Assembly: GCF_041321155.1 (NCBI RefSeq)
Contig: NZ_JBGGWB010000001.1
Location: 744,001 to 808,000, forward strand
Reading direction: 5' to 3'
DNA: 64,000 nt
Source of the DNA: Sphingomonas sp. IW22
GTDB taxonomy: Bacteria > Pseudomonadota > Alphaproteobacteria > Sphingomonadales > Sphingomonadaceae
Shown: positions 96 through 36,562 of the stretch, one piece after another
Numbering within the stretch: the stretch's first letter is position 1
Layout of the letters: every line of letters starts with the position of its first letter
Notes under the pieces: model-generated
Databases searched by the model: none
The model's input: the letters and a program-made list of their open reading frames with translations, nothing else
Told to the model about the DNA's origin: nothing
Made by a program: the position numbers and the translations under genes

Positions 96-516
96 TGCAT
101 TCCTCCATCTCTGTTTCGGCCGACAAGCGCTCGGTGCGCGTCTCAGCGGCCTGGGCGCGCCGGATCCACTCGTCACGCTGGCGGATCGTCGCTTCGGCCA
201 GGCGGCGTTGCTCGACGCCGAGCTGGACCAAACGGTCGGTTTCCGCTGCCAAAGCGTCGATGCTCGCCGACTGCTGCTTAACAATCAGGCGCGCAGCATC
301 GCGATCGGTGCGCGCATCATCCCTGCCCTTGACCAGCGCGGCGATCGCCTCGGGGGCCTTGTCCGGCTTTGGGCGATCAGGGATGGCGATCGTGATGCGT
401 GTCAGCAAATCCAGGTATCGCGCGCGCAGATGATCGACGCGCGCTCCCCAGGCCAGGGCACCGACAAGCGCGATGACGAGCACCGTTTTTATCGGGTTCG
501 CAGCCAGCCAGTTCAT
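58..516 (-). CDS. Rz-like inner-membrane spanin (i-spanin)
   Basis: 152 residues. One N-terminal membrane segment (about residues 8-24, KTVLVIALVGALAWG) is followed by a long charged, helix-prone region with alternating Ala/Arg/Glu typical of the periplasmic coiled coil of Rz proteins. The start ATG overlaps the endolysin stop (ATGA), so it is translationally coupled. The gene lies last but one in the holin-endolysin-spanin cassette and its 3' end overlaps a lipoprotein reading frame in a second frame, as in lambda Rz/Rz1. The role, anchoring in the inner membrane and spanning the periplasm to disrupt the outer membrane, is inferred from topology and position; spanins have little sequence conservation. 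Confidence 0.75.
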   Translation of the reverse strand: MNWLAANPIKTVLVIALVGALAWGARVDHLRARYLDLLTRITIAIPDRPKPDKAPEAIAALVKGRDDARTDRDAARLIVKQQSASIDALAAETDRLVQLGVEQRRLAEATIRQRDEWIRRAQAAETRTERLSAETEMEECNAVLDALYHDGF

Positions 517-1100
517 GGCAGCCCGGCCTTACAGATGCGGATCTCGCGCCGGCGCCGGTTGACCAGTCCAGGAACAACCCGCAACGGTCGGCCTGCCTTC
601 TTCCACATGGCAAAGGCATCGCACCCCGCAGCCCACTGACCGGCGCGAAAGCGATGTGCGGCAGTCGACGCGCAGAACGACGGCCACCCGATATTATAGG
701 AAAGGCTGATCGCAGCGTGCAGCTGCTGCTCGCGCCCCGTGGCGAAGAGCTGCGGCGTACATGCGCGGATCCGCGTCGCATGCTCGACCAGCTCGCGCTC
801 AAGGCGGATCAGACAGCCGTCCGGCGTCTCAACCATCCCGGCGCGAACGTCGCGGGTCAGGCCGTCGCAGATCGTCCAGATGCCGACAATATCGCGATAG
901 GCGGCCAGATACTGGCGGCCGGCTACGTGGCGCACCTCAATCGCCCGGTCAGCGCGTGGACGTGCTTCGACAACGCGACCGCTTTCGTCGGCCGGCACGC
1001 TGACGAACAGACCGGCTGCCACGACGGCGCCAACGATCGCCACGAGCGCGCTGCCAATGCTGCGGCGAGGCGCCGCCGGCATCACACCATAGCCGGGCAT
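513..1100 (-). CDS. Phage endolysin, GH24 lysozyme-like, with N-terminal signal-anchor
   Basis: 195 residues. Residues about 15-36 form a Gly/Ala-rich weakly hydrophobic segment preceded by Arg-Arg, as in signal-anchor-release endolysins. The lysozyme core follows: LAAYRDIVGIWTICDG carries the Asp and Thr of the family's E-8-D-5-T catalytic set, and GLVNRRRREIRIC matches the C-terminal GLxxRRxxE region. The glutamate expected nine residues before the Asp is not there (Gly at that place, AGRQYLAAYRD), so the active site is unusual. Several cysteines suggest disulphide control. The start codon shares one base with the holin stop (TGATG). The predicted substrate is peptidoglycan in the periplasm. 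Confidence 0.8.
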   Translation of the reverse strand: MPGYGVMPAAPRRSIGSALVAIVGAVVAAGLFVSVPADESGRVVEARPRADRAIEVRHVAGRQYLAAYRDIVGIWTICDGLTRDVRAGMVETPDGCLIRLERELVEHATRIRACTPQLFATGREQQLHAAISLSYNIGWPSFCASTAAHRFRAGQWAAGCDAFAMWKKAGRPLRVVPGLVNRRRREIRICKAGLP

Positions 1101-1300
1101 CAGTCCTCGTCTCCGGCCTTGGCAACCGGATTGCGTCCGATTGCGCGCTGGATCGTATCGGTTTCCCAGATGCGGATCATGGTCCAGATCACGGTCATCA
1201 GCGCCGCGATCGCTGGCAGCATGTCCGACAGCGTGCCGACAACGACACCGATCGATACCGCGTCGCCCAGCGCGCGCGGTGCTTCCTGAGGCAAGTTCAT
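1100..1300 (-). CDS. Phage holin (small, two membrane segments)
   Basis: 66 residues. Two hydrophobic stretches (about residues 12-28 and 29-45, with LPAIAALMTVIWTMIRIWE) and a charged tail. The pattern ending in a WxxIRIWE-like motif is typical of short class II holins next to endolysins. It is the first gene of the lysis cassette, upstream of and coupled to the endolysin. A GGAG sequence precedes the ATG. It is separated from the tail genes by a strong terminator, so the cassette may have its own transcription or depend on read-through. Function is assigned from topology and position. Confidence 0.75.
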   Translation of the reverse strand: MNLPQEAPRALGDAVSIGVVVGTLSDMLPAIAALMTVIWTMIRIWETDTIQRAIGRNPVAKAGDED

Positions 1301-1377: not shown

Positions 1378-2616
1378 TTATTTTCGGAGCGCGGCGATCT
1401 GCTTCAGCAGCGGCGACGCGCCGGTCTTCGTCGTCTGGGTCAGGCCATACCAGCCCCCACCGTTCGCATCGTAGGGCATGAACGTCGACATGATAAACCA
1501 GGTCGCATACCGGATCACGTCGGCGTTATCGTCCAGCCATTTGAAGAACAGCGGCATGGCGAAGCGGCCCTTGGCGTTGTTCGGGAACGCAAACTCGGTC
1601 AGCGCCAGGGTAAGGCCGGCTTCTCGGGCAGCATCGACGCTGGGCTGAAGCCGCTTGGCGATCCATTCCGCAACATCCGCGTCCGAATAGGTGTCGCCGA
1701 GCTTCATCACCTGCGAAGGATAGCGACCCGACGTGTCATCATCGAAATACTGGTGCACGTCGATGATGGTCCGGCCCAGCGGATCGCTATCGGCCAGCGC
1801 CTTTGCATCATCGATCTTGTCATCAAGATCCTGAAACGCCTGATAGCCGCTGATCGACATCGTCAGCGGCGTCGTCCAGCCCGCCGCACGGTGCAGGCGG
1901 ACGAACTCCCGGCCGATCGGCCACCAGTCACTGCCGAGCGAATGAGGCTCGTTTACGAATGACGGGATGAGGCGCGGATGGTTCAGATAGCGGCCAAAGC
2001 CCGCCATGAACGATTCGTAGAGGCCGGCCGCCTTCTCGACCGTCAGCTTGGGCGTGAACATGTTACCGGTGGTAGGCGACTTCTGCCGCGCCTCCCGGCT
2101 CGCGCCATAGCCGTGTTCCTCGACGATGATCGTGAAACCCATGTCCAGCGCCGCATCCATCATCGGATGAAGATGCTTTTCGACCGCCGGGTCGACGACA
2201 AAGACCCCCGGCGTGGTCTCGTCCGACATCAGGCGCCGAGCGCGATATGGCACCCGGATCAACCGAATACCGTTATCCCATGCCAGCTGAAGCTCGGCGG
2301 CCGTGGGATAGAAATACGCGGTCCCATAATCGAGCCGATACGACGACATGCCGCCGGCGCCGATGTTGCAGCCAATCATGCAGCGCCGCGTGATCGGCAC
2401 CGGTTCGCTCGCCGGTTCTTCGACAACCGGCGGCTCGGGGATGCGCTCTTCCGGGTCGGTGGCATAGGCGATCTTGCCGGTTTCCGGCAGCCCGTCAGGC
2501 ACGATGCCCAGCAGGTAGAGCCGATCGACACCGAACTTCGTCCGATTCGCCTTGCCCAGTTCAATGATGCCGTCCGGGTCTTTGTCGGGCAGCATTGCGT
2601 CGAGGTAGTGGATCAT
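1378..2616 (-). CDS. Tail-associated glycoside hydrolase, GH5 (cellulase-like) family
   Basis: 412 residues. An N-terminal part of about 70 residues, ending in a Pro/Glu-rich linker, precedes a TIM-barrel glycosidase domain. Visible GH5 marks: GIRLIRVPYR near residue 110, the catalytic acid/base in FVNEPH near residue 220 (the family N-E-P motif), VHQYFDDD near 285, and the nucleophile in ALTEFAFP near 340. No signal peptide is seen. The ATG overlaps the stop of the preceding DUF1593/LamG gene (ATGA), so it is co-translated with tail fibre genes; the operon ends in a terminator just after it. The likely role is a virion-borne depolymerase acting on a beta-linked host surface glycan; the substrate is not known. 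Confidence 0.85.
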   Translation of the reverse strand: MIHYLDAMLPDKDPDGIIELGKANRTKFGVDRLYLLGIVPDGLPETGKIAYATDPEERIPEPPVVEEPASEPVPITRRCMIGCNIGAGGMSSYRLDYGTAYFYPTAAELQLAWDNGIRLIRVPYRARRLMSDETTPGVFVVDPAVEKHLHPMMDAALDMGFTIIVEEHGYGASREARQKSPTTGNMFTPKLTVEKAAGLYESFMAGFGRYLNHPRLIPSFVNEPHSLGSDWWPIGREFVRLHRAAGWTTPLTMSISGYQAFQDLDDKIDDAKALADSDPLGRTIIDVHQYFDDDTSGRYPSQVMKLGDTYSDADVAEWIAKRLQPSVDAAREAGLTLALTEFAFPNNAKGRFAMPLFFKWLDDNADVIRYATWFIMSTFMPYDANGGGWYGLTQTTKTGASPLLKQIAALRK

Positions 2617-4589
2617 ACGGTGATTCCTTTCACTGCTACGGCATCACGGACACGCTGGTGCGCGGCGGCGATGTCTTCGGGCTGAAGGTTTTCGAAGATG
2701 GCGACATGCGCGATGTCGCCGAGCAGACTGGCGGACGTGCTCCCGCTCGATCGCTGAGATCCGATATAGGTGAGACCGCTGCCGGGGTTTGGAGCACCAG
2801 CGACCGTGCCGCTGATCGCTTCGGCCCCATTGACGTATGCGGCGATCGCCGGGCCGTCCTCGTAGACCGAAACCATCAGCCAGGTGTTTGCGGGCAGCAC
2901 CGCGTCGTCAGTGAACGTCGTGGCAGAGGTTCCGCCACCATAACGCCGGATGTATTCGAGCCTGCCGCCGTTGAACCGAAGCTGGAACTGACGGCTGCTG
3001 GCATTGCTATCGTCACGCGCGGCAATCGTTTGCATCCCGGACGTCGCCGCGACCCGCACCACGAATGCCATCAGGCGCTTGTTCGACCCGTTCAGGCGCG
3101 GCGCTTCCGGCAGCCGGAGATAGTCGTTCGTGCCGATCGTCACGCCCTCGGCAATGAACGTCGGGTCTGCCGTGTCAGCTTCCACCTGCAGGCCAAGCGC
3201 CAGCACGCTGCCATGCGTACCGAGCAGATACTGGCCCTCGGTTTCACGGATCAGCCATTCGTCGACCAGCTCGGCCTCCAGTGGCTCGGCCGCCGGCGCA
3301 AACTGATCGAGGGCATGGGCCGATGGCACCAGTGCCGAGCGCGGCGCGCGATACCGCTCGAAGGCCTCGGCAACCGCTGCATACCAGCGATCGAGGTTGA
3401 CCGCCGCTTCGGCCGCCGTCGTCGTGTTGGTGATCGTCAGCTCGGGCGCCCAGGCGTGCGGGTTCCACCACGTATGTTCGGGGTTGGGGAACTGCGGATT
3501 GACCGCCGTTCCGTAACCGAATGTGCGCGCCGCCCACAGCTCGCCAACATAGGGTCGATATTTGCCGCACCAGTTCGCCGTATTGGCAGGATCAAAATTG
3601 CCTTGCAGCTTGGCGGAGATCAGCCAGAACCATGCACCGGCGTCGCCGGCGCGGTAGTAGCTCGACGGATAGTTGCTGGTGCTGCGTTCGTTCTGCATGA
3701 ACGCGCCCATTGCCCCTGCGGGAACGATGCGATGTACCCAGAAGTCCGCGTCGGAGCCGCTGTTGTCGCGGTTGAACGCGTGCCACTGGTGATACCCGGC
3801 AATCAGGTGCATGTCGCCGAACAGGCCCGGCGTCTCCGCATCCGGCCAGCTGTTCGAGGTCAGGTAGACCCACGACGGCGTGTCGCCGTTCGGGCCGGTG
3901 TTGAAGTTCGGCTGACCGATGATGCGGACGCGCCTGAAGAAATCGGGCTGCTGGCCAAGCTGGACCGCCTCATATGCGGCCTGCGCCACGACATCGAACG
4001 AACCCTGCACCGAGATCCACAGCTTGTCCTGCGGCAGCTCGCTGTCCGGATTGCCATGGGCGGCCGCCGCCGCAATCATCGCCTGGGCAGCGGCATGCGC
4101 GCGATCGTACTGATCGTCGTCGCCCGGCTCGCGATAGCCCTTCGAGGGGGACAGCGAACGCGGGCCTTGCACGCACAATGCCGTCAGTTCGGCTTCAGCC
4201 TTGAAACGCTCGGGATAGGGCGTGTGCGTCACCAAGGTGGCGCGATCGGCCTCATAGGCGGTGATCTGGTTGGTGAACCCGCTCGACAGCCCGCCAGGCA
4301 TGGATGCTGCGAACCCGACCAGATTGAAGTGATCCTGCGTCGCCAGCCACAGCGCCATCGCACCTTCATCGTCGCGCTCCGCGCCGGGATCGATGTCGGC
4401 GGTTACGAAGACCGGGTATTGCGCAGTCTTCGCCGTGGCCGGACCGACCGGCGCAGCCATCCGGGGCAGCGAAGGCGTCGGGGTTGGTGTGGGAATGGGG
4501 ATCGGCAGTCCGGCGATCACGACAGACGCGGCGGCTCGGATTGCGCGCGGCGATCTGGAACCCGCGCCGCGGAATCGGGGGTGCCTCAT
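2613..4589 (-). CDS. Tail fibre-like protein: DUF1593 (nucleoside hydrolase-like) plus C-terminal LamG/ConA-like domain
   Basis: 658 residues. A short basic N-terminus with VIAGL and a Pro-Thr repeat (PIPIPTPTPTPS, about residues 29-42) leads into a domain starting VFVTADIDPGAERDDEG near residue 60. Its acidic cluster fits the DUF1593 family, which has a nucleoside-hydrolase-like fold and is usually found in secreted carbohydrate-active proteins. The last 200 or so residues (about 440-650, with LSGTV-like strands, GLTYIGSQR and HVAIF) resemble a concanavalin-A/LamG jelly roll that binds glycans. It lies between two GH5 genes in the tail fibre module, with AAGGA eight bases upstream of its ATG. 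The exact reaction is unknown. Confidence 0.75.
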   Translation of the reverse strand: MRHPRFRGAGSRSPRAIRAAASVVIAGLPIPIPTPTPTPSLPRMAAPVGPATAKTAQYPVFVTADIDPGAERDDEGAMALWLATQDHFNLVGFAASMPGGLSSGFTNQITAYEADRATLVTHTPYPERFKAEAELTALCVQGPRSLSPSKGYREPGDDDQYDRAHAAAQAMIAAAAAHGNPDSELPQDKLWISVQGSFDVVAQAAYEAVQLGQQPDFFRRVRIIGQPNFNTGPNGDTPSWVYLTSNSWPDAETPGLFGDMHLIAGYHQWHAFNRDNSGSDADFWVHRIVPAGAMGAFMQNERSTSNYPSSYYRAGDAGAWFWLISAKLQGNFDPANTANWCGKYRPYVGELWAARTFGYGTAVNPQFPNPEHTWWNPHAWAPELTITNTTTAAEAAVNLDRWYAAVAEAFERYRAPRSALVPSAHALDQFAPAAEPLEAELVDEWLIRETEGQYLLGTHGSVLALGLQVEADTADPTFIAEGVTIGTNDYLRLPEAPRLNGSNKRLMAFVVRVAATSGMQTIAARDDSNASSRQFQLRFNGGRLEYIRRYGGGTSATTFTDDAVLPANTWLMVSVYEDGPAIAAYVNGAEAISGTVAGAPNPGSGLTYIGSQRSSGSTSASLLGDIAHVAIFENLQPEDIAAAHQRVRDAVAVKGITV

Positions 4590-4591
4590 AG

Positions 4592-4729
4592 TCAGGATCC
4601 TTCAGTTTGCGATGGAGCGGTTGGCGGGACCAGGCCCGCGATGACGGGCGAAGCGGCACCGCTGCTTTGCTGACGCACGCGCGGGTTCGCCGTCCCCGCC
4701 GCAGTGCGGGTTCGTGGATGCCTTGCCAT
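4592..4729 (-). CDS. Small protein (45 aa) resembling the N-terminus of the next tail fibre protein
   Basis: ATG at 4729 preceded by a strong ribosome site (AGGAGCTTCAAG before the ATG); stop two bases before the start of the DUF1593/LamG gene. The sequence starts MARHPRTRTAAG and contains ASPVIAGLVPPTAPS. The downstream protein starts MRHPRFRGAG and contains ASVVIAGLPIPIPTP, so the two share RHPRxR, a PR pair and AASxVIAGL in order. It therefore looks like a free-standing copy of that protein's N-terminal leader, possibly a remnant of a fibre module swap or a short attachment peptide. The frame fills what would otherwise be a 150-base gap. Confidence 0.6.
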   Translation of the reverse strand: MARHPRTRTAAGTANPRVRQQSSGAASPVIAGLVPPTAPSQTEGS

Positions 4730-4739
4730 CTTGAAGCTC

Positions 4740-7313
4740 CTATTGATCGGCCAGAAACGGGATCAGCATCTGCATGCAGCCGGTATCGACCGGGTTGTAA
4801 TAGTCGGCCGGGTCGAGCCGGAAGATGTAGGTCCTGTTCCAGAACCGTCCGGCGCCCCAGGTCGTCCAGCCCAGCCAGACGTCCCGGTTGTCGCTCATAT
4901 ACTGGTAGGCAGCGGTCACGACCGGGCCGCACGCGGCCTGCCCCTCGATCGCCGGGTCGCCGCCCGCCAGCTCGCCCATGAACAGGCGGAAGCCATTCGC
5001 CCGCGCCCATTCGGTGATCGCCACCAGCCTGGTCTGCGCGCCCGCCTCGCAGGTGCCCTTGGTGCCGCTGGCATCGTCGTCGAAATAGGTGTGCGGCTCG
5101 AAGGCGAAATTGTCGGCCGGGTCGTAGAAGCTGGCATAGGCCGCGCCCTGCCCGTTGCTGACCCAGCTGCGCGCCGCCGAATATTCGGCGCCCGACATGA
5201 AGATCTTGTTGAGCGCAGGGGTCCGCGCGCGGATCGCGTTGACGACGGCATGATGCGTGTCGCCCACCCGCACCGGCGTCTGCTTGCTGCCGTTCGGTTC
5301 GTTCATGATGCCGAACCACACCCTGGGGTTGTCGGCATAGTGATCGGCAAGCTTGACCCAGAGGTCGGTCAGCATCGCGATTGGCGTGTCGGGATTGTCA
5401 TAGGCGATCTTGCCGCCCCCGCCCTCCTGGAACGAATACGACATGTAGTTGTGGCAGTCGATCAGCGCGATGCCGCCCAGCACCTGCGTCCAGTACCAGA
5501 GCTGTTCGTCGAGGCGGCGCATGTCCTGCCGGTTCGGCGTCGTCCACGATCCCGTGCCGCCGCCACCGAATAGCGGACCGAAGGGCACGGGCTGGATGCG
5601 CTCCCATTTGAACGGCACGCGGATGATCCGCACGCCCCGGCTCCAGTGATAGTCCATCTCGCGGTGCTTGCGCGGCTCGGGATGTTCAGGCTCGGAATTG
5701 TAGACGTAGTGCGTACCGTAGACGCTCGGCTCTCCGTTGGGCCAGGTCGAGCCGCCGGCGGCGCTGCCAAGGTTCACGCCGACGATGAAGTCCGGATCGG
5801 CCGGAAGCACTGGCGGCGTCAGGTAGACGCAGGCGTCGGCGATAACCAGATAAGACGGGCCGATAGGGTCTGTTATCCGCAGGGTGTGCTTCCCGGCACC
5901 GGCGTGGGGAACCGTGAACGTCACGGCGCTATCGGATCGGTCAGCGGCTTGGGCATAAAGCCGGCCAGCCTCGTAACTGACCCCCGCCCCCGCGTGGCAT
6001 GCGGCGGCAAGCGCAGCGTCGAAACCCGGCGGCGGGTTCACCGATTCCAGCGCGACGCTGTCGCCCACGGCGCCGGTCGGCCCCTGAATGGTGTAAGTGA
6101 TCTGCGACCCGTCGCTGACCGCGCGCAGTTCCCAGAAGCGCGGCGGCACGTCGCGCACCTCGACCCCCGCGGTCGTGTTCGACGTCTGCGTCGTGCGAAA
6201 CTCGCGCCAGCGCTCGGTATCGGTCGGCACAACACCGATGCTGCTGCTGTCATCGGTGTAGATGTAGCGGCCGCCGTCGACCAGATAGGTGACCCAGTCG
6301 CCCCGCCGGTAGATTGTACTGTCGTTCCAGTCGCCACGGCTCCGGATGCTGTCGAACTCGGCTGCGTCGCCCTCGGCCAGGATCTGCGCGATGAAGATGA
6401 TCTGGCGCGTGCTTTCCTCGGTCGCGTTGCTGTCGACCGTCATCACCATCGTCACCGGATTGGCGTCGTCATAGGCTTCGGTGAAGGTGATCGTGCCGCC
6501 GTTATACCAGGCGGTCGGGTCGTTCGGGTCGAAGCCCGGCACATCGATCTCGCAGCCGACCAGCGGCGCGGCGTTGCCGATCGCGGTGCGGAAGCGCGGT
6601 GTCGTGATGTCGCGGCCGCCGTCGGTCGCGGCATAGATCTTGACCGCCGTGCCGGGCAGGATGTTCGTGGTGTTGATCGTCAGGCGGAAGCTGTCGCCCT
6701 CGAAGAGCGAGTTGACCGCAGCCAGCCCGTCGACGGACGTTAGATTTTGTCGCAACGTCGGCATCCCTACGGGCCGCTGCGACGTATCTTGTACGCGCAC
6801 TAGGTTGCCGCCAACGAAGCGCGAGTTCGTGCCGTTGAAGGCGCGATCCTCGGGCGTGTCGCCCAGCGTCTCCATCAGGATCTGCATTTCGCGGTAGCCG
6901 GGCGTGCCATCCGGGTTGGTCGCATCGGTGCGACGGTTTCGCCGCGAGCGGTTGCGCAGCACCATCATCTGCCCGGCATAGTCCGGACCAACCTCGATCA
7001 CCCCGGCGATCGTGCCGATGACGGGCGGGTTGGTCGAACTGCTTGAGCGCTGATAGCTGCAGCCCACCGCCTCGCATGCCTCGGTAAACACGTCATGCCA
7101 GCTGCGCTCCCAGTTCCCTGTCGATGCCAGGCTCTTGCCGCCCGCCATCCACTGCTGAATTTTAGACCCGACATTGTAATTCGACACCGACAGGGTCAGC
7201 ACGACTTCGTCGCCCTCGCTCGTGAGCACTGGCGTCTGGCGCTGATAATTCCAGCGCGGCGGATGTAGTCGAAATGGCTGGTTGGCGGCCATCAACGCCG
7301 GGTAGACTGTCAC
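4740..7313 (-). CDS. Large tail fibre-like protein with C-terminal GH5 glycoside hydrolase domain
   Basis: About 857 residues if started at the GTG at 7313, which overlaps the upstream stop (GTGA) and has GGGA upstream; an ATG at 7292 is the alternative. The N-terminal 480 or so residues are beta-rich and of no family I recognise, with a segment (SRGDWNDSTIYRRGDWV) resembling carbohydrate-binding modules. The C-terminal part from about residue 505 (FIVGVNLGS) is a GH5 barrel: RGVRIIRVPFKWER, the acid/base in GIMNEPNG near 670, PHTYFDDD, and the nucleophile in LFMGELAGG near 778. It is a second, distinct GH5 enzyme in the same module, likely a depolymerase spike or fibre. Substrate unknown. 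Confidence 0.82.
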   Translation of the reverse strand: MTVYPALMAANQPFRLHPPRWNYQRQTPVLTSEGDEVVLTLSVSNYNVGSKIQQWMAGGKSLASTGNWERSWHDVFTEACEAVGCSYQRSSSSTNPPVIGTIAGVIEVGPDYAGQMMVLRNRSRRNRRTDATNPDGTPGYREMQILMETLGDTPEDRAFNGTNSRFVGGNLVRVQDTSQRPVGMPTLRQNLTSVDGLAAVNSLFEGDSFRLTINTTNILPGTAVKIYAATDGGRDITTPRFRTAIGNAAPLVGCEIDVPGFDPNDPTAWYNGGTITFTEAYDDANPVTMVMTVDSNATEESTRQIIFIAQILAEGDAAEFDSIRSRGDWNDSTIYRRGDWVTYLVDGGRYIYTDDSSSIGVVPTDTERWREFRTTQTSNTTAGVEVRDVPPRFWELRAVSDGSQITYTIQGPTGAVGDSVALESVNPPPGFDAALAAACHAGAGVSYEAGRLYAQAADRSDSAVTFTVPHAGAGKHTLRITDPIGPSYLVIADACVYLTPPVLPADPDFIVGVNLGSAAGGSTWPNGEPSVYGTHYVYNSEPEHPEPRKHREMDYHWSRGVRIIRVPFKWERIQPVPFGPLFGGGGTGSWTTPNRQDMRRLDEQLWYWTQVLGGIALIDCHNYMSYSFQEGGGGKIAYDNPDTPIAMLTDLWVKLADHYADNPRVWFGIMNEPNGSKQTPVRVGDTHHAVVNAIRARTPALNKIFMSGAEYSAARSWVSNGQGAAYASFYDPADNFAFEPHTYFDDDASGTKGTCEAGAQTRLVAITEWARANGFRLFMGELAGGDPAIEGQAACGPVVTAAYQYMSDNRDVWLGWTTWGAGRFWNRTYIFRLDPADYYNPVDTGCMQMLIPFLADQ

Positions 7314-7864
7314 TGCACGACGTTCCCGGACACCAGCATGCGTGACCGAAACGCGCTGTCCCGCGCGATGCATTTGACGCAGGCCTCAGCATTCTCGCCA
7401 GCGAGACGGAACGCGTTGCCGAACGATCGCAAAAAGCCGGGTTCACCGGCGCCGTTGGTGCCGATCGTCACGGTAACGCGCGGCCCGCCGGTGCCTTCCT
7501 GTATCAATAGCACGCACCAATTTGGTGCGACGTTGCCTGGCACCTGAACGTTGATGTTCGAGGTCGCGCTGACACCAGCGCAGACGATCGTCTTGCCGTT
7601 ATGCTCCGGTCCCAGGACAATCGTACTACCGCTGGTGAGCGCGATCCGCACCACGTCGAGCGAGCTCATGTCGTAGCGCGACTGCAGCGGCGATGGCACC
7701 AGCGTCGTCGTGCCCGGCCCGGTCGGCAACGGATAGCGGCCATCGCCATTCGGTCCGCCGCCGGCGGCGCCGGTCGCCCAAGCCGCCAGCATCGCCACGA
7801 AGGCATACATGCGCTCTAGGAAACCCAGCAGCTGGGCCGCGACGTCGTCATTCTCGATCGACAT
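7310..7864 (-). CDS. Phage tail fibre module protein of unknown function
   Basis: 184 residues with GAGGATCAT before the ATG. An N-terminal helical stretch (QLLGFLERMYAFVAMLAAWATG) and a Gly/Pro-rich linker lead to a beta-rich domain (VRIALTSGSTIVLGPEHNGKTIVCAGVSA and VTVTIGTNGAG). I do not recognise a named family. The position between the tail hub and the large GH5 protein, with coupled stop and start codons on the downstream side, argues for a structural tail-tip or fibre adaptor component. The N-terminal VAAQL resembles a stretch in the small protein just upstream. Confidence 0.65.
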   Translation of the reverse strand: MSIENDDVAAQLLGFLERMYAFVAMLAAWATGAAGGGPNGDGRYPLPTGPGTTTLVPSPLQSRYDMSSLDVVRIALTSGSTIVLGPEHNGKTIVCAGVSATSNINVQVPGNVAPNWCVLLIQEGTGGPRVTVTIGTNGAGEPGFLRSFGNAFRLAGENAEACVKCIARDSAFRSRMLVSGNVVQ

Positions 7865-7880: not shown

Positions 7881-8033
7881 TCAGGGCTGAAGGACGGCGC
7901 CGGGCCGCGGTTCGGCTAGGTCGACCTCTTGGGCGACCTCACCAGGCTGTAGCTGCGCCGCGACATCCTCATCGTCGGGAAGCGACACACGTCGGGGGTT
8001 CTCTCCCCCACTCGTGATGATGTATTCCCTCAA
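7881..8033 (-). CDS. Small phage protein (50 aa), TTG start coupled to the tail hub gene
   Basis: A TTG at 8033 overlaps the stop codon of the hub gene (TTGA) and is preceded by GAGGAGAAG at good spacing, which decides the start. The product begins LREYIITSGGENPRR, continues acidic (LPDDEDVAAQLQPGEVAQ) and ends in a Pro-rich tail. No family recognised. It fills the 150 bases between the hub and the next tail gene and is probably translated as part of the tail operon. A longer reading of the same frame inside the hub gene is a shadow. Confidence 0.6.
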   Translation of the reverse strand: MREYIITSGGENPRRVSLPDDEDVAAQLQPGEVAQEVDLAEPRPGAVLQP

Positions 8034-10744
8034 CGCTTCTTCTCCTCGATGAAAAAGCCCGAACCGGCCTCGATCCATCCGCCAGAGCTGTTGCCGCCAT
8101 TGAACGAGATCTTGAGGCGCCATGTGCCAGCGCCGGCAGCGATGCCCTGAAAGCGGCGCATGTACGCGACGGGCAGCCGCAGCGAGTTGACGCCGTTGAC
8201 CTCGAGCTTGACGCCGGGCCAGAACCACAGCGTGTCCATCACGATTTCGGCGCCGCCCTGCGGCTGATAGGTCACGGTGAAATAACCGGTCCACTCGACC
8301 GCCCGCATCCGCAGCTGGGCATCGACCTGCACCCCGGATTCGTCGGTGTCCTTGACGACGTTGATCGCCATGACGGTGACGTCGGAGCCGTAGATGTTCG
8401 TAAAGTTCGAACCCAGCTCGACGGCATAATCCTTGCCGATCGCGAACAGGTCGAGCGTTTCGGTAGTGACCGAACTGGCCGCGAAGGTGCCGACCCGGAC
8501 GGACAGCATCTCGACAGTGCCGTCTGCGCCGATCTGGAACGGCGTGAAGGGCTGGCCACCATTCGGGTTCACGATCCGGAACACGTTGGCGTAGATCACA
8601 TATTCGCCGATCTCGCCGGACAGCGTGTTGACGGTGCCCGTGATGTTACCGTCAAGATCGAGGATATTGACCGACCGCAGCGTCGCCCCGCTCTGGTCGA
8701 ACAGGATCTCCTGCATGTTCGTGATGTCGGCCTTCTGGCCATCGACCTCGGCCGTCAGTGCGGTCAGCGATCGCGAGGTGAACCCGGTCCCGGCGATCTC
8801 GATCGAATCGGCGTTGAAGATCCAGCCATTATCCTCGCCGTTGCGCGCACCCATGAAGGCGAAGTTCTGAACGAAGACGTTGTTCGCCGCCTCGGATGCC
8901 GCCCTCACCTCGCCGATCACGACGCCGACCTGCTTGCCGTCCAGCATGGTGCGCGCATCGATCAGCGCCGTCAGCGCGTCGCCACGCAGGGTCTGATTGA
9001 GGATATTCTCGCCGTTCAGATCGGTAAGCCGGTTGATCTCCTCAGCCAGGCGATTGCCGACGGGTGTTCCGTCCGGTGCGCCGACCGTCGCCTTGTCCTG
9101 TGGCTTGCCCGGCCCGGTGACGCCGCTCCACAACGCGGTCTCTGCCGCCTCGCCGATCGCGAGGATCAGCGGGTTGTTCGAAGCGTCATAGATCGTGGGC
9201 ACTGCCGGCACGACCGGCGCGCGGTCGTCATTGTCCCAAGCGTAGATTGCTGCGTTCTCTTCCTCGAGCACCATCTGACACGGATTGCTGCCGGGATCGG
9301 TTTCGACGACGCGGAACAGCTTTCGCTCAAAGCTGAGGGGCGCGAACGTCACCGGGACGACATCACCGACATTGTAGCGCCAGGCGGTGATGTCGAACGG
9401 CGCGGAGAAGCGACGCGCATACTGCTTGCGCTGCAAAAACTGCTTGATGACGCGCTGCGCCTGGCTTGCGCTTTCAACGACGCCCAGGTCCATCGTCAGA
9501 ACACGATCGATCCCGTCGAAGCTGGGTAGCGAGACATCGGGATACGGCACCAGCTGGTACAGCGACGCCGGATCGGTGTATCTCCCCCGGATGATGTTGG
9601 GCGTTTGCTCCAGCGCAGGGTCGGGGTCCCAGGTGAACGCCCCGATCACGTCGTCCTCGTCCAGCCCTTCGTCAGTCGCCGCAGCCGCCAGGTCGTTGTG
9701 CATGATCGCGATCTGCAGCTTTCCGCCGTGATCGCGGAACCGCGCGCTGCATGCCGCCAGCAACGGATCCAGCATGTCTCGCGGGTCCAGCCCCTCCGAG
9801 AGGACAGCCGCGCCTTGATAGCGCGGCTCGGTCCCGCCGGCTGATCGGCCGACCGGCTCGTCGCACTGGTTGGCGGCAACCGCAAACGACGGCAGTCCCA
9901 AGCGGCGGACAGGCACGCCGCATCCGACCGCCAACCTGCCGTTGATCTTCCATCCGAGCAGCACGCGCAGAACCTGCAACGCCAGATTGTCGCCGATAAC
10001 CGCCCCGTCGTCGGCAACGAAGCGCCACGTCGACTGATCGTCGGCACGCATCGGTCCCGATCCGCCCGGCACCGTACTGTCGCGCCGTGGATCATAAAGC
10101 GGCGCGCCCTTGCCAACGACGGTGACGCGCGTTGGAATGCCGCTGGCAAACGGGCTCTCAGCCTTCTTGCCGTTACCGGTGACCTTGAACTCCCAATGGG
10201 AATAGGCGCAGCCAGTGAGCCGGGAAGAGCAGGAATTCCATTTGCCCGACCCAAAGGTGAAGGCGTTCGCGGCGCTGCCTTCCAGCACCACGCGCCGAAC
10301 CCAGAAATAGCCGATGAACTTGCCCTGCGTTCCGCCCGTCGCCGTCCAGGCAAGCTCATCGTTCAACCAGATCTGGTCAACCGAATGGATGCGGTGGCTC
10401 GCGTGCGCCACGATCCACCCACACCGCTCCTGGTCGTTGCCGAACCATTCGAGATACCGGATGTCCGATGCGAGCGCGGTCGAGCCGAGCACTGTCTTGC
10501 GGTATGCGCTCACGTCGACGGTGGCGTTCAAGCGATCGACCTGCGACGCTGGCACGTCGGGCATCTTCTGCATCGAAGTGCCAATTGCCTGCAGCGCACC
10601 GCCAGCGAGCAGCAGGGTGCCCGCCGAGATGCCGCCGATCGAGGTAGCCAGCGATACGCCGAGACCGACGGCCGCCCCGCCGGTGACGATCGCCAAACCG
10701 GCGATTGCGACGACCGCGCCCACAGTCTTCAGGGCCTTAGCCAT
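8030..10744 (-). CDS. Phage tail tip / central hub protein (J-like)
   Basis: 904 residues from the ATG at 10744, which has GGAGG at good spacing and overlaps the upstream stop by 8 bases. Residues about 6-48 are a Gly/Ala-rich hydrophobic region (VGAVVAIAGLAIVTGG). The middle (WNDNLAL-type strands, NIIRGRYTDP, YNVGDVVPVTFAPLSFERKLFRVVE) matches the hub part of host-specificity proteins of siphophage tails. The C-terminal region (VFRIVNPNGGQPFTPFQIGADG) resembles the DUF1983-like part of lambda J relatives. It follows the DUF2163-like and NlpC/P60-like genes in the order used by lambda-like and gene-transfer-agent tails, and precedes the fibre genes. It should form the tail tip through which DNA is delivered. 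Confidence 0.82.
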   Translation of the reverse strand: MAKALKTVGAVVAIAGLAIVTGGAAVGLGVSLATSIGGISAGTLLLAGGALQAIGTSMQKMPDVPASQVDRLNATVDVSAYRKTVLGSTALASDIRYLEWFGNDQERCGWIVAHASHRIHSVDQIWLNDELAWTATGGTQGKFIGYFWVRRVVLEGSAANAFTFGSGKWNSCSSRLTGCAYSHWEFKVTGNGKKAESPFASGIPTRVTVVGKGAPLYDPRRDSTVPGGSGPMRADDQSTWRFVADDGAVIGDNLALQVLRVLLGWKINGRLAVGCGVPVRRLGLPSFAVAANQCDEPVGRSAGGTEPRYQGAAVLSEGLDPRDMLDPLLAACSARFRDHGGKLQIAIMHNDLAAAATDEGLDEDDVIGAFTWDPDPALEQTPNIIRGRYTDPASLYQLVPYPDVSLPSFDGIDRVLTMDLGVVESASQAQRVIKQFLQRKQYARRFSAPFDITAWRYNVGDVVPVTFAPLSFERKLFRVVETDPGSNPCQMVLEEENAAIYAWDNDDRAPVVPAVPTIYDASNNPLILAIGEAAETALWSGVTGPGKPQDKATVGAPDGTPVGNRLAEEINRLTDLNGENILNQTLRGDALTALIDARTMLDGKQVGVVIGEVRAASEAANNVFVQNFAFMGARNGEDNGWIFNADSIEIAGTGFTSRSLTALTAEVDGQKADITNMQEILFDQSGATLRSVNILDLDGNITGTVNTLSGEIGEYVIYANVFRIVNPNGGQPFTPFQIGADGTVEMLSVRVGTFAASSVTTETLDLFAIGKDYAVELGSNFTNIYGSDVTVMAINVVKDTDESGVQVDAQLRMRAVEWTGYFTVTYQPQGGAEIVMDTLWFWPGVKLEVNGVNSLRLPVAYMRRFQGIAAGAGTWRLKISFNGGNSSGGWIEAGSGFFIEEKKR

Positions 10745-11156
10745 AGGTGACCCTCCACCCTTGCGGATCGAGCCATGCCCCGCGCTCAAGGCGGATCAGA
10801 CCTTCGCGCTCGTTCTCGCGGCCCACCGCAATCGCGAAAGCGCCCCAGACGATCGCGACCAGACCACCGGTCATCACCAGATCACCACGCTGGGCAAGAT
10901 GCGCCGGCACGCGCGCGAACTTCGTGTCGAGCGTGGCTTCCAGCGTGCCCGCGCCATGAAGGCGCAGGGCGCGCGCGGAACCGAGCGCCGTTCGATATCG
11001 ACCCCGGAACTCGGGCATCGGGTCGACGCCCGTCATCGCCAGCACCGCGCCGGCGCTGAACGTGCAGCAATCGTGGGTGCCCCATTCGAACGCACGCGCG
11101 CGAAGGGGTTCGAGATACGCAGCAAGCCGCGCCTCCCAGTCGGGCAAACGATGCAT
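10737..11156 (-). CDS. Tail tip assembly protein, DUF6950 / NlpC-P60-like
   Basis: 139 residues. The motif EWGTHDCCTFSAGAVLAMTG near residues 24-40 is the HDCxxF signature of small phage tail proteins of the DUF6950 type, related in arrangement to the NlpC/P60 cysteine peptidase used by tails to open peptidoglycan. A later Gly-rich strand (RGDLVMTGGLVAIVWG) fits the fold, but a clear catalytic histidine as in true NlpC/P60 is not obvious. It sits between the DUF2163-like protein and the hub, the same slot as the peptidase gene in gene-transfer-agent and lambda tail clusters. Confidence 0.75.
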   Translation of the reverse strand: MHRLPDWEARLAAYLEPLRARAFEWGTHDCCTFSAGAVLAMTGVDPMPEFRGRYRTALGSARALRLHGAGTLEATLDTKFARVPAHLAQRGDLVMTGGLVAIVWGAFAIAVGRENEREGLIRLERGAWLDPQGWRVTYG

Positions 11157-29390: not shown

Positions 29391-29768
29391 TTACTGCCCC
29401 GCCCCCGCTCGAAAGGTTTTGCCCGGTTCGTGCATCGTGGGCGAATGGGCGCTGGTGGCGATTGTCCGAGCAAGTTGGGCGAGCGCGGCGCGATCCTTTG
29501 GCTCGAGCGCGCGATAAAGCTGCAGCAACTCTGCCTCGTCCGACGTCATCTCGGGAGCAGCGGGTGCGTCCTCATCTGGATCATCGGTCTCGCCCGTTAG
29601 GTAAGCCGGCGTGGTCCCTAACTCTCGCGCCACCTTGTGCAGGAACCGAGAATTCTGAGAAATTCCGTGTGTCAGCTTGAAAATCGTTTGCTGCGACACA
29701 CCCACACGTCTGGCCAACTCGCTCTGCGAAATTTCGCGCTCAGCCATGATGGCTCTAATGCGATGCAT
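29391..29768 (-). CDS. CI-like prophage repressor (XRE family)
   Basis: About 125 residues from the ATG at 29768 (a GTG at 29777 is possible). The HTH is IMAEREISQSELARRVGVSQQTIFKLTHG in segments. A linker with TPAYLTGETDDPDEDAPAAP and a C-terminal helix (ELLQLYRALEPKDRAALAQLARTIA) follow; there is no S24 peptidase, so cleavage by RecA-type induction is not expected from this gene alone. It is divergent from the Cro-like gene with an 85-base control region in between, the usual immunity switch layout. Confidence 0.8.
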   Translation of the reverse strand: MHRIRAIMAEREISQSELARRVGVSQQTIFKLTHGISQNSRFLHKVARELGTTPAYLTGETDDPDEDAPAAPEMTSDEAELLQLYRALEPKDRAALAQLARTIATSAHSPTMHEPGKTFRAGAGQ

Positions 29769-29798
29769 TTCGATCACGCTTTCGATCTACCACCAACG

Positions 29799-34486: not shown

Positions 34487-34794
34487 CGCTCGAAGACCGC
34501 ATTCGCGCCGATCTCGGTCGAAAAGTCATGGGGCTGATCAGCCCGCAGCTTGAACGCGAGCTCAACCTGGCGCTGCGGGTGTTGCCACCGGATCAGGTGT
34601 CGCTGCTGGCGGTGGAGCTCGCGACCGTACTCGCAGGAGCATGTCTGCTGGTGCCGGTCCAGTTCGCCGCCGACGACAAGCGGGAAGCGCTTTTCGACAC
34701 GTCTCTTGAATGGCTACACGAACGCCTGAAGGTTCGCCGCGACGAGATCCTGACGGCGCTTGACCAGCAGACTTCGAAATCCGGCGCACGGTGA
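34483..34794 (+). CDS. Phage protein of unknown function (103 aa)
   Basis: ATG at 34483 overlaps the ParB-like stop (ATGA). Helical: LEDRIRADLGRKVMGLISPQ, LRVLPPDQVSLLAVELATVLAGACLLVPVQ, then ALFDTSLEWLHERLKVRRDEILTAL. One moderately hydrophobic stretch in the middle. No family recognised. Coupled (GTGA) to the next short frame. Confidence 0.65.
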   Translation: MTLEDRIRADLGRKVMGLISPQLERELNLALRVLPPDQVSLLAVELATVLAGACLLVPVQFAADDKREALFDTSLEWLHERLKVRRDEILTALDQQTSKSGAR

Positions 34795-35072
34795 GCGAAT
34801 TGCCAGCTGCCTTTGCCGCGCTGATCGACGCGATTGCCTGCGACATGGCCGCCGAGGATGCTGTGCGTCTTTCGAATCCAGGGAGCACACCATGTCCAAC
34901 GCGCCACGCTGCGCCATCTACGCTCGCTTCTCGACCGACAAGCAATCGGCCCACTCGGCCGAGGACCAGGTCGCAGACTGCACCCGCCTCGCCGAACGCC
35001 AAGGCTGGCAGGTCGTCCAAATCTACACCGACGTCGCTCTCTCGGGCACCAACAACCGGCGGCCGGGCATGA
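34791..35072 (+). CDS. Doubtful small gene overlapping the recombinase start
   Basis: GTG at 34791 overlaps the preceding stop (GTGA). The first 28 residues (SELPAAFAALIDAIACDMAAEDAV) look like a real helix of the type seen in small phage proteins, but the rest lies in the wrong frame over the recombinase N-terminus for 180 bases and is Thr/Pro/Arg-rich. It may be the front end of a gene whose tail was replaced when the recombinase module was acquired. Confidence 0.3.
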   Translation: MSELPAAFAALIDAIACDMAAEDAVRLSNPGSTPCPTRHAAPSTLASRPTSNRPTRPRTRSQTAPASPNAKAGRSSKSTPTSLSRAPTTGGRA

Positions 35073-36529
35073 CACAAATGCTGTCTGACGCTGCTGCGGG
35101 TGCGTTCGACATCGTTGCGGCCGAAGCCGTCGATCGCCTCGCGCGCAACCAGGCCGACATCGCTACAATCTTCCAGCGCCTCGAATTCGCAAACGTCGCC
35201 ATTCACACGCTGACCGAAGGCCGGATCAACGAGATGGTCATAGGGTTCAAAGGGACGATGTCTGCGATGTTCCTCAAGGACCTTGCCGACAAGATACGGC
35301 GGGGCCAGCGCGGAACTGTCGAGCGTGGGCGCGTCGCCGGCGGCCTGACTTATGGGTATGATGTAGTCCCAAAGATCGACGCCCGTGGGGAGCTCGATCG
35401 CGGCCACCGCTCTGTCAACGCCGAGCAGGCGGCTGTAGTGCGCCGTATATTCAATGAGTTCGTGGCGGGACGCAGCGCAAAGGCGATCGCCAAGGGGCTC
35501 AACGCGGACGGTATCCCCAGCCCGCGCGGCGGCGAATGGCGCGCCAGCACGATCTACGGTTCCGAAGTTCGAGGCTACGGTATCCTGCGCAATTCGGTTT
35601 ATGTCGGAAGGATCGCCTACAACCGCGTTCATATGCGCCGTGACCCTGACACGCGGCGGCGCATTTCGCGTCCCAATCCGGTTGAACAAAGGGTCGAAGT
35701 TGAAGCGGACCATCTCCGCATCATCGACGACTCGCTTTGGAAAGCCGCACAGGACGAACTGAGCGCCCGTGGCTCCCAGCCGCTCAATCTGCAGCCCAGG
35801 CCCCGCTACCTGCTTTCCGGGCTGCTACAGTGCGGACGCTGCGGCGGGTCCGTCGTGGTGATCGGCGATGGGCGCTTGGGCTGCACGCGTGCGCGCGAGG
35901 CAGGAACGTGCGATGTCCGCAGCACCATAAAGCGCGAGGAGGTCGAGCGCCGCGTTCTGGCGGGCCTGACCGATCGCCTGCTGGAACCGCAGGCCGTCGC
36001 TCGCTTGGTTTCCCGCTATCACGCCGAAAGCGCCGGTCAGGCAGACCAGCGCGCTGCGGAAGGTGCCCAGATCGATCGCAAGGTCGCGAAACTCGATCAG
36101 TCGATCACGCGTCTAGTCGCCGCGATCGCCGACGGTGCTGCTGATTTCCGCGAGATCAAAGAAGCGTTGGTGGCGCGCAAGGCCGAACGCGAGCAACTGA
36201 TCCGGGCGCGTGAAGAGCATAAGGCCGTCCCGGTCATTGTGATGCGACCTGACATCGTCGAGCGGTACCGCAAGCGCGTCCGCCAGCTCGCACTCACGCT
36301 GTCGACTGACACCGCGACGGGACTTGAGGTCATGAATCGACTTCGGGATTTGATTGTCGGCGTGTCGCTGATGCCCACGAACTCAGGCGTATGGGACATT
36401 CATGTCGCAACGTCTCTGGGAGCTGTCGTCGATTTGGCGACGAAACAAAAAACCACACCAAGGCGCGCTAGCGCCTCGATGCAGTTGGTAGCGGAGGAGG
36501 GACTTGAACCCCCGACACGCGGATTATGA
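34892..36529 (+). CDS. Large serine recombinase (prophage integrase)
   Basis: 545 residues from the ATG at 34892 (GGGAG upstream). The resolvase domain starts RCAIYARFSTDKQ with the catalytic serine in RFS; AEAVDRLARNQADIATIFQ is the usual E..DRl.R. The recombinase domain follows (GGLTYGYDV, AVVRRIFNEFVAG, YGILRNSVYVGRIAYN), then a zinc ribbon (LLQCGRCGGSVVV ... GCTRAREAGTCD), then a long coiled coil. The last 14 codons (VAEEGLEPPTRGL) are the antisense reading of the tRNA-Met 3' end, so the stop is supplied by the attachment region. This is the integrase and excisionase-dependent recombinase of the prophage. Confidence 0.93.
   Translation: MSNAPRCAIYARFSTDKQSAHSAEDQVADCTRLAERQGWQVVQIYTDVALSGTNNRRPGMTQMLSDAAAGAFDIVAAEAVDRLARNQADIATIFQRLEFANVAIHTLTEGRINEMVIGFKGTMSAMFLKDLADKIRRGQRGTVERGRVAGGLTYGYDVVPKIDARGELDRGHRSVNAEQAAVVRRIFNEFVAGRSAKAIAKGLNADGIPSPRGGEWRASTIYGSEVRGYGILRNSVYVGRIAYNRVHMRRDPDTRRRISRPNPVEQRVEVEADHLRIIDDSLWKAAQDELSARGSQPLNLQPRPRYLLSGLLQCGRCGGSVVVIGDGRLGCTRAREAGTCDVRSTIKREEVERRVLAGLTDRLLEPQAVARLVSRYHAESAGQADQRAAEGAQIDRKVAKLDQSITRLVAAIADGAADFREIKEALVARKAEREQLIRAREEHKAVPVIVMRPDIVERYRKRVRQLALTLSTDTATGLEVMNRLRDLIVGVSLMPTNSGVWDIHVATSLGAVVDLATKQKTTPRRASASMQLVAEEGLEPPTRGL
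36486..36529. other. Probable prophage attachment site (right end, within tRNA-Met 3' part)
   Basis: The recombinase reading frame overlaps the 3' half of the tRNA-Met gene by 44 bases. The tRNA is whole, so the phage copy of the core must restore its 3' end. A second copy of this sequence is expected at the left end of the prophage, outside the window; none was seen at positions 1-60. Confidence 0.6.
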
Positions 36530-36562
36530 TTCCGCTGCTCTAACCAACTGAGCTACTCCGCC
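36486..36562 (-). tRNA. tRNA-Met (CAT), elongator
   Basis: 77 bases including encoded CCA. Acceptor GGCGGAG pairs with CTCCGCT; D arm AGCTCAGTTGGTTAGAGC; anticodon stem GCGGA/TCCGC with loop ATCATAA, anticodon CAT; T arm with GGTTCAAGTCC. First acceptor pair is G-T, not the C-A mismatch of an initiator tRNA, so elongator Met; a lysidine-modified Ile tRNA cannot be fully excluded. It is the integration target of the prophage. Confidence 0.93.

Follow-up and report, generated by a model that had tools for sequence, protein, structure and literature searches.

A prophage GH5 tail-fibre-like protein with exchangeable neighbours in Sphingomonas sp. IW22 and its predicted action on host exopolysaccharide

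In Sphingomonas sp. IW22 there is a prophage in which the tail genes are followed by three genes for predicted glycan-active proteins, P0003, P0002, and P0001. They are present in the window analysed here, a 64,000 nt stretch (NZ_JBGGWB010000001.1 positions 744,001-808,000; GCF_041321155.1), as three intact open reading frames (ORFs) on the minus strand, transcribed in that order, between genes for a J-like tail protein and a 184 aa protein (p184) upstream and the lysis genes downstream (Table 1). P0003 is a tail-fibre-like protein carrying a glycoside hydrolase family 5 (GH5) domain, P0001 is a second GH5 protein, and P0002 has a nucleoside-hydrolase (NH)-like fold. These are probably virion-borne enzymes of a temperate phage that cut the acidic exopolysaccharide (EPS) of the host, P0002 and P0001 being interchangeable cargo behind the fibre. 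The coordinates given in a first-pass annotation of this DNA were confirmed, as was its placement of the genes in a prophage tail, from Pfam and PHROGs matches of their neighbours; the glycan-active function that it proposed stands as a prediction.

Both P0003 and P0001 had been called GH5 from an N-E-P acid/base and a second glutamate, which profile searches bear out. PF00150 is matched by P0003 with E 2e-33 (116.4 bits) and by P0001 with E 5e-14 (52.8 bits), against a curated cut-off of 23.5. The acid/base and nucleophile are E672 and E781 in P0003, and E223 and E341 in P0001. The residues diagnostic of GH5, which we take to be the two catalytic Glu, the Asn before the acid/base, an Arg, a His, and a His-x-Tyr, are complete in both sequences. 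In P0003 and its homologs R565, H621, N671, E672, H741, Y743, and E781 are invariant in 14/14 rows (alignment A2, P0003 included), and for P0001 the same is true of R121, H168, N222, E223, H288, Y290, and E341 in 4/4 rows (alignment A3). The activity predicted for both is retaining hydrolysis of a beta-glycan.

The layout of the two proteins is different. P0003 has a conserved N-terminal part of ~500 residues and a C-terminal GH5 domain (about 507-857), modelled as a (beta/alpha)8 barrel with a structure match list that covers 502-857 only, while in P0001 a short stretch of about 75 aa precedes the GH5 domain. The solved structures closest to either GH5 domain are cellulases or endoglucanases. 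The GTG start of P0003 is within a GTGA that overlaps the stop of the upstream gene; from the ATG at 7373 the protein would be 877 aa. Neither P0003 nor P0001 has a signal-peptide-like start as read by eye, no predictor having been run. Residues about 320-376 of P0003 include a 50-residue W/Y/G-rich stretch, presumably CBM5/12-like, which recurs in long frames of other genomes (profile about 312-384).

Among the ~8,000 candidates sharing most words that were scored in the homolog searches for P0003 and P0002, P0003 has 13 homologs besides itself (35-62% identical, 96-100% query coverage), and the 4 with an organism name are all Sphingomonas. Distant versions are present in viral contigs L032-L035. 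A profile scan of 295 genomes of the genus, in which the best 3 candidates of each genome were scored, found the full-length fibre in the window genome (G000), G591, G391, and G513, the last with two prophages; in G188 there is a 60-residue match to the N-terminal part with 2 stops. There is no full-length fibre besides that of the window in 397 genomes of the family, the best 2 candidates per genome being scored. P0001 has 3 full-length homologs; a search of viral contigs found none, and there is no other full-length copy in 146 genomes of the genus. The fibres are not mainly unrelated chromosomal enzymes, as in a tree of 61 domains the 22 fibre GH5 domains lie to one side of a branch from the chromosomal GH5, with a support of 87, short of the program's star threshold of 95. 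The best "phage" match of both GH5 proteins, MT835628.1 (L003, filed as Bacteriophage sp.), was dropped as phage evidence; its gene starts are SusC/SusD-like by reading, with the look of a Bacteroidota polysaccharide-utilisation locus, and it has 3 PF00150 matches. GH5 proteins are also found in other phages of the structure library. In Pseudomonas phage ZQG1, a separate case, a cellulase adjoins the portal gene.

The conserved core of this region is the small protein and the GH5 fibre, with P0002 and P0001 occupying a variable slot downstream. The order tape measure, distal tail protein (Dit), 195 aa tail protein, DUF6950 protein, J, small protein, fibre is kept in prophage loci L057, L058, and L059, and L056 shares the C-terminal part of J, p184, and the fibre. 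There is a 70% identical copy of p184 in L056, with weaker matches in L057-L059, L118, and L120. Behind the fibre there are a GDSL protein (27.0 bits, cut-off 23.6) and a GH5 protein in L057; a GH30 protein, an acyltransferase, and a GH5 protein in L058; a SASA-like protein (21.9 bits, under the cut-off of 24.8) and a 309 aa protein in L056; and a 526 aa protein without a family match in L059. The GH5 cargo of L057 and L058 has a signal-peptide-like start by reading, and the start of the 309 aa protein resembles that of P0001 (27 residues, E 5e-4, single comparison). Within this small set, then, modules behind the fibre have been exchanged. The single three-protein module of the first-pass annotation is not conserved as such: the P0002 type and the P0001 type stand together only here among the loci examined, the contigs of the 3 P0001 homologs being outside that scope, and the GH5 fibre occurs elsewhere without either type.

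A profile scan for Dit gave 29 viral loci, with a GH5 fibre in 2, none in the stretch seen in 21, and 6 that end earlier; one of the 2, L120, is identical to L059 over 13,752 bases. J is >1000 aa in 17/21 loci without the fibre and 879-946 aa in those with it, the split J of L057 apart. Nine proteins from the fibre-less loci included one weakly beta-helix-like and one GDSL-like, both under cut-off. As most of these loci carry other proteins at this place, the GH5 fibre seems to be one among several exchangeable receptor modules on one tail chassis.

In the case of P0002, the DUF1593-plus-LamG architecture first proposed was correct. The protein matches PF07632 "Sde182_NH-like", which we take to be the former DUF1593, with E 3e-11 (43.7 bits, curated cut-off 26.8), and PF13385 Laminin_G_3 with E 5e-13, also above the Pfam cut-off; NCBIfam gave a name to none of the three proteins. 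A short N-terminal peptide, with a short hydrophobic stretch by reading, is followed by the Sde182/DUF1593 domain (about 55-416) and the LamG-like domain (about 437-652). The model has the NH-like fold of 2yhg. Clostridial neurotoxin binding domains also matched the C-terminal part in structure, which was put down to the shared LamG/jelly-roll fold.

D65, D67, E71, R72, D73, D74, and D316 are invariant in 19/19 phage-type proteins, and the D65-D74 stretch comes directly after the first strand of the fold. Nucleoside hydrolases carry DxDPGxDD at this place, and their Ca site also includes a Thr carbonyl and a late Asp. The likeness in P0002 (D65-x-D67...D73-D74 and D316) is a motif comparison only, and the invariant positions may form a Ca site. 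The structure match to nucleoside hydrolases is at 10-14% identity, there is no IU_nuc_hydro match at E up to 0.05, and P0002 differs from these enzymes in lacking a His ahead of the last metal-site-like Asp (G315-D316), so a nucleoside is an unlikely substrate. A viral sequence picked out by motif for the comparison yielded a fragment of 39 residues, and its alignment was uninformative. That P0002 is an enzyme at all is conceivable from these residues, if on balance doubtful.

DUF1593 had been expected in secreted proteins rather than virions; the alignment does, however, contain a phage-associated subfamily of 19 rows. Among 5.8 billion proteins P0002 has 18 homologs beyond its own entry (34-55% identical), whose N- and C-terminal parts vary (fn3, Ig, LamG-like), and there is none in 50,697 phage records. 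The profile scan found 6 viral contigs and 2 genome contigs, one of the genome contigs being the same as a viral one in the stretch compared (L008 and L011). There are phage genes in 6/7 distinct phage-type loci: a J-like protein in L005, L009, and L010, tape measure in L008, terminase and head-tail adaptor in L007, and a DNA-primase PHROG in L012. In the seventh, L006, no phage gene was established; over the DUF1593 stretch it shares 96.5% identity with L005. Somewhere in the Caulobacter genome to which L012 belongs there are 4 GH5 matches, and neither window GH5 protein matched any L012 ORF. An acyltransferase adjoins the phage-type DUF1593 in L012, and in L058 (16573-19145) an Acyl_transf_3 acyltransferase and a GH5 protein come after the GH30 tail protein; the acyltransferases at these two loci possibly bring about a lysogenic change of EPS.

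Phage-type proteins carry DxD...ERDD, sit in phage regions, and have LamG-like or other domains following, whereas the chromosomal members, in the host EPS locus and in G264, carry DM...KDD. When 298 family genomes were scanned with the P0002 profile, the second match (G264, L014, contig C104; 45 bits) was not of the phage type: this 568 aa protein, from another genus of the family, resembles the host EPS-locus protein in its KDD form and RTX-like repeats. An hhalign comparison of the phage-type profile with that host protein gave a probability of 99.0, with D73, D74, and D316 kept. DUF1593 is found in 41/295 genus genomes, almost always as another type that scores far higher with the profile, and the family as a whole has no tie to EPS loci. 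The open-licence literature searched has no paper on DUF1593, with Sde182 appearing only as a locus tag Sde_182x in a list, and nothing relevant on phage or tail-fiber nucleoside-hydrolase-fold proteins acting on polysaccharide.

The host has an EPS locus on contig C6 (60-116 kb, L060-L062; Table 1), read in the window genome only; in the other fibre hosts the GumK gene alone was seen. It holds GH5 and DUF1593 proteins, the enzyme families of the prophage, and also a GDSL protein. RTX repeats are present there in the GH5, GDSL, and M10-like protease proteins, along with Big_9 repeats; in the phage proteins, in contrast to the 921 aa GH5 and the GDSL protein of C6, there is no RTX match in Pfam.

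GumK_N is above cut-off in 20/295 genus genomes (22 at E 0.001), and all 4 hosts of the full-length fibre are among those with the family (hypergeometric P 1.6e-5, kinship ignored in this and the following counts). Without the window genome, the source of the idea, it is 3/3 (P 2.3e-4). There is a GH5 within 20 kb of GumK in 15/20 GumK genomes, and of the 28 genomes with non-fibre GH5 matches of at least 60 bits, 18 have GumK (Fisher P 9e-20). The table behind these counts holds the 51/77 rows of the fibre-profile scan that reach 60 bits, and the 26 rows left out include 7 matches of some 50 residues at profile 320-376 that are not fibres. Outside the genus, GumK is present in 4/8 GH5 genomes and 0/22 others (P 0.0026), the 22 being taken in number order, not at random, and G023, G024, and G030 among them having weak or short matches. 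On an rpoB tree the fibre hosts fall into three positions, with G591 next to G000; this tree has 28/30 genomes, without G567 (no rpoB match) and G330 (broken frame). Together with the GH5 proximity and the shared families, this co-occurrence makes it probable that the host's own EPS is the target, as was first supposed.

The sphingan first suggested as a plausible target is not supported; the GumK-family and GT26-family genes look more like a xanthan-type pathway. GumK of xanthan synthesis is described as the single well-characterised GT70 enzyme (PMC12768416), and xanthan has a cellulose-like backbone, with GH5 endo-xanthanases among the enzymes cutting it (PMC10881899). A xanthan-like or other glucuronic-acid EPS would therefore be favoured over a sphingan. 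The open-licence literature searched has nothing on a phage depolymerase for sphingan, and on Sphingomonas prophages it yielded a conifer-microbiome paper alone.

P0003, P0002, and P0001 would thus be adsorption or penetration enzymes of a temperate phage, one whose tail genes have a lambda-like order. P0003, probably held at the tail tip through its conserved N-terminal half, would cut internal beta-1,4-glucosyl bonds in the acidic EPS that the host itself makes. This polymer, probably not cellulose, would be the product of the locus with the GumK-family glucuronosyltransferase and the GT26-family (GumM-type) transferase. P0001 would act as a second GH5, and P0002 would add an NH-fold domain, probably Ca-binding, and a LamG-like domain, for another bond or for grip on the same polymer. 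The two may be swapped behind the fibre as host EPS varies.

Several points weigh against this. The place of the three proteins in the virion is taken from gene position in the tail module. The trio has been found nowhere else, and the phage relatives of P0002 come without GH5, which has no match in any of the 6 viral records with phage-type DUF1593. We know of no enzymatic activity for DUF1593, and the solved relative 2yhg was deposited as a cellulose-binding protein. The GumK test was conceived after inspection of the window's own EPS locus, there are only four fibre hosts in the sample, with counts that take no account of kinship, and the test planned outside the genus found no cases among the 397 family genomes. 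GumK is present in 18/53 genus genomes with any fibre-profile match (P 4e-13), and the 25 with only <60-bit matches are all without it. Outside the genus, GH5 and GumK are within 20 kb in 2/4 genomes having both. The GumK and GT26 families, moreover, leave the polymer structure unfixed.

It might instead be that the GH5 fibre is the only depolymerase and receptor-binding protein, with P0001 and P0002 as accessory binding proteins or leftover cargo, and P0002 lectin-like, its fold binding sugar only. The conservation of the fibre alone across prophages, while its slot partners vary, would fit, as would the name given to 2yhg and a structure match of P0002 that speaks to fold only. The metal-site-like Asp, Glu, and Arg of P0002 are nevertheless invariant throughout the phage-type proteins, and P0001 and its homologs keep every GH5 catalytic residue, which makes this rather unlikely. 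With regard to cellulose or a plant beta-glucan as the target, as for phage S6, the closest solved GH5 relatives are cellulases and S6 takes cellulose as its first receptor (PMC9544554), but BcsB (PF03170), the one bcs gene searched for, is matched in 0/4 fibre hosts (the control search did give matches in E. coli and B. subtilis) and the GH5 co-occurs with GumK-family genes, and this target is considered distinctly improbable.

Alternatively, the cargo enzymes could be made in the lysogen or at lysis and trim EPS outside the cell, not in virions, serving progeny release or the exclusion of other phages. P0001 adjoins the lysis genes, P0002 has the short hydrophobic stretch at its start, and in the same region of L057 and L058 there is GH5 with a signal-peptide-like start, accompanied by the acyltransferase in L058. 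That the starts of P0001 and P0003 are not signal-peptide-like, that the 500-residue conserved N-terminal part of P0003 fits an attached fibre, and that the genes are tightly packed and overlap with the tail operon argue for virion-borne enzymes, as do the RTX repeats matched in two of the host EPS-locus relatives and in none of the phage proteins; a lysogenic or release role is improbable.

With regard to the remainder of the locus, genes for portal, terminase, and major head protein are upstream of the tail genes. The overlap of the serine recombinase frame with tRNA-Met (34760-36562) is likely the attachment site, and with these on one side and a D12 methyltransferase on the other, the prophage is estimated at about 40 kb. 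Like-looking genes are at the same end of related prophages (L057 16684-17475, L059 14692-15360), the family match being for L111 only. The 45 aa ORF directly upstream of P0002 has a start resembling, by reading, that of P0002 (M-RHPR...R...SPVIAGL), and is perhaps an anchor peptide left from cargo exchange.

Table 1. Location of the prophage genes and of the genes in the host EPS locus (window positions unless a contig or locus is named)
Feature	Location	Strand	Basis or remark
Endolysin, Phage_lysozyme	513..1100	-	PF00959 E 7e-24; PHROG endolysin
66 aa hydrophobic ORF	1100..1300	-	Translation; holin-like by position only
P0001, GH5 protein, 412 aa	1378..2616	-	PF00150; ATGA start overlaps P0002 stop
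P0002, 658 aa	2613..4589	-	PF07632 and PF13385
45 aa ORF (MARHPR...)	4595..4729	-	Read from sequence
P0003, GH5 tail-fibre-like protein, 857 aa	4740..7313	-	GTG start at 7313; PF00150
p184, between J and the GH5 fibre	7310..7864	-	PHROG of unknown function
J-like tail protein	8030..10789	-	Phage-tail_3; PHROGs tail fiber protein, central tail fiber J; start codon uncertain
DUF6950 protein 139 aa, tail protein 195 aa, distal tail protein 197 aa, tape measure 1042 aa	10737..15479	-	Pfam/PHROGs; syntenic in L057, L058, L059
HTH repressor-like protein	29391-29777		
Serine recombinase	34760-36529		Frame overlaps tRNA-Met on other strand
tRNA-Met	36486-36562		
D12 DNA adenine methyltransferase	L111:16676-17473		Family match; far side of prophage, beyond window
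RTX-GDSL protein	C6, at 61521		
WecG/TagA/CpsF protein	C6, 70249-71451		Family presumably GT26
RTX-GH5, 921 aa	C6, 71548-74313		
Second GH5	C6, 76695-77921		
Acyltransferase, GT2s, GNVR	C6, between second GH5 and GumK_N		
GumK_N	C6, 88067-89335		
Poly_export, Polysacc_synt_3 (Wzx-like), Glycos_transf_1 protein	C6, after GumK_N		
DUF1593	C6, 103976-105952		
Type I secretion genes, UDPG_MGDP_dh	C6, after DUF1593		

Were the enzymes to act as proposed, a phage receptor module would be linked to a type of host EPS locus, which is rarely possible from sequence, and the enzyme-like DUF1593/Sde182 fold would be placed in a context that names a candidate substrate. If P0002 cuts the polymer, there would be a function for a family found in polysaccharide loci, and the GH5 fibres would serve as tools cutting acidic gums. 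A bolder extension, offered tentatively, is that the NH-fold domain is a virion-borne Ca-dependent glycosidase for GumK-made EPS in alphaproteobacterial phages and that phage tails and sphingomonad EPS loci share a GH5/DUF1593/GDSL set, so that the EPS locus of a strain would tell the fibre module of its prophage.

A close, tested precedent for GH5 phage EPS hydrolases exists in Erwinia amylovora phage S6 (Schitoviridae), where gp095 has a C-terminal GH5 and degrades carboxymethylcellulose, the adjoining gp094 is a GH48, cellulose is the first receptor, and the location of both in the particle is, according to the paper, still to be shown (PMC9544554). As in S6, a polymorphic region here codes for at least two adjacent phage glycoside hydrolases; in one of them the GH5 domain is C-terminal, and the N-terminal domains may serve for attachment to the particle. 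An EPS receptor, proposed here from the genes, is a further likeness. S6 is, however, an N4 relative with a GH48 partner and a cellulose target, while here there is a prophage with lambda-like tail order, hosts without a BcsB match, and an NH-fold protein and a second GH5 as partners. XacCel5A, RBcel1, and Thermoascus EGI (PDB) are free cellulases, whereas the GH5 of P0003 is fused to a tail-fibre-like N-terminal part, and 2yhg is a Saccharophagus degradans cellulose-binding protein of the Sde182 family. The RuGH5a and MiGH endo-xanthanases (PMC10881899) are not phage proteins and are set beside the window GH5 by description only. What is new is that this chassis carries a fibre of the P0003 type, that the fibre co-occurs with GumK-family genes, and that there is a phage subfamily with a predicted NH-like fold, the last being the newest part and any activity of it conjectural.

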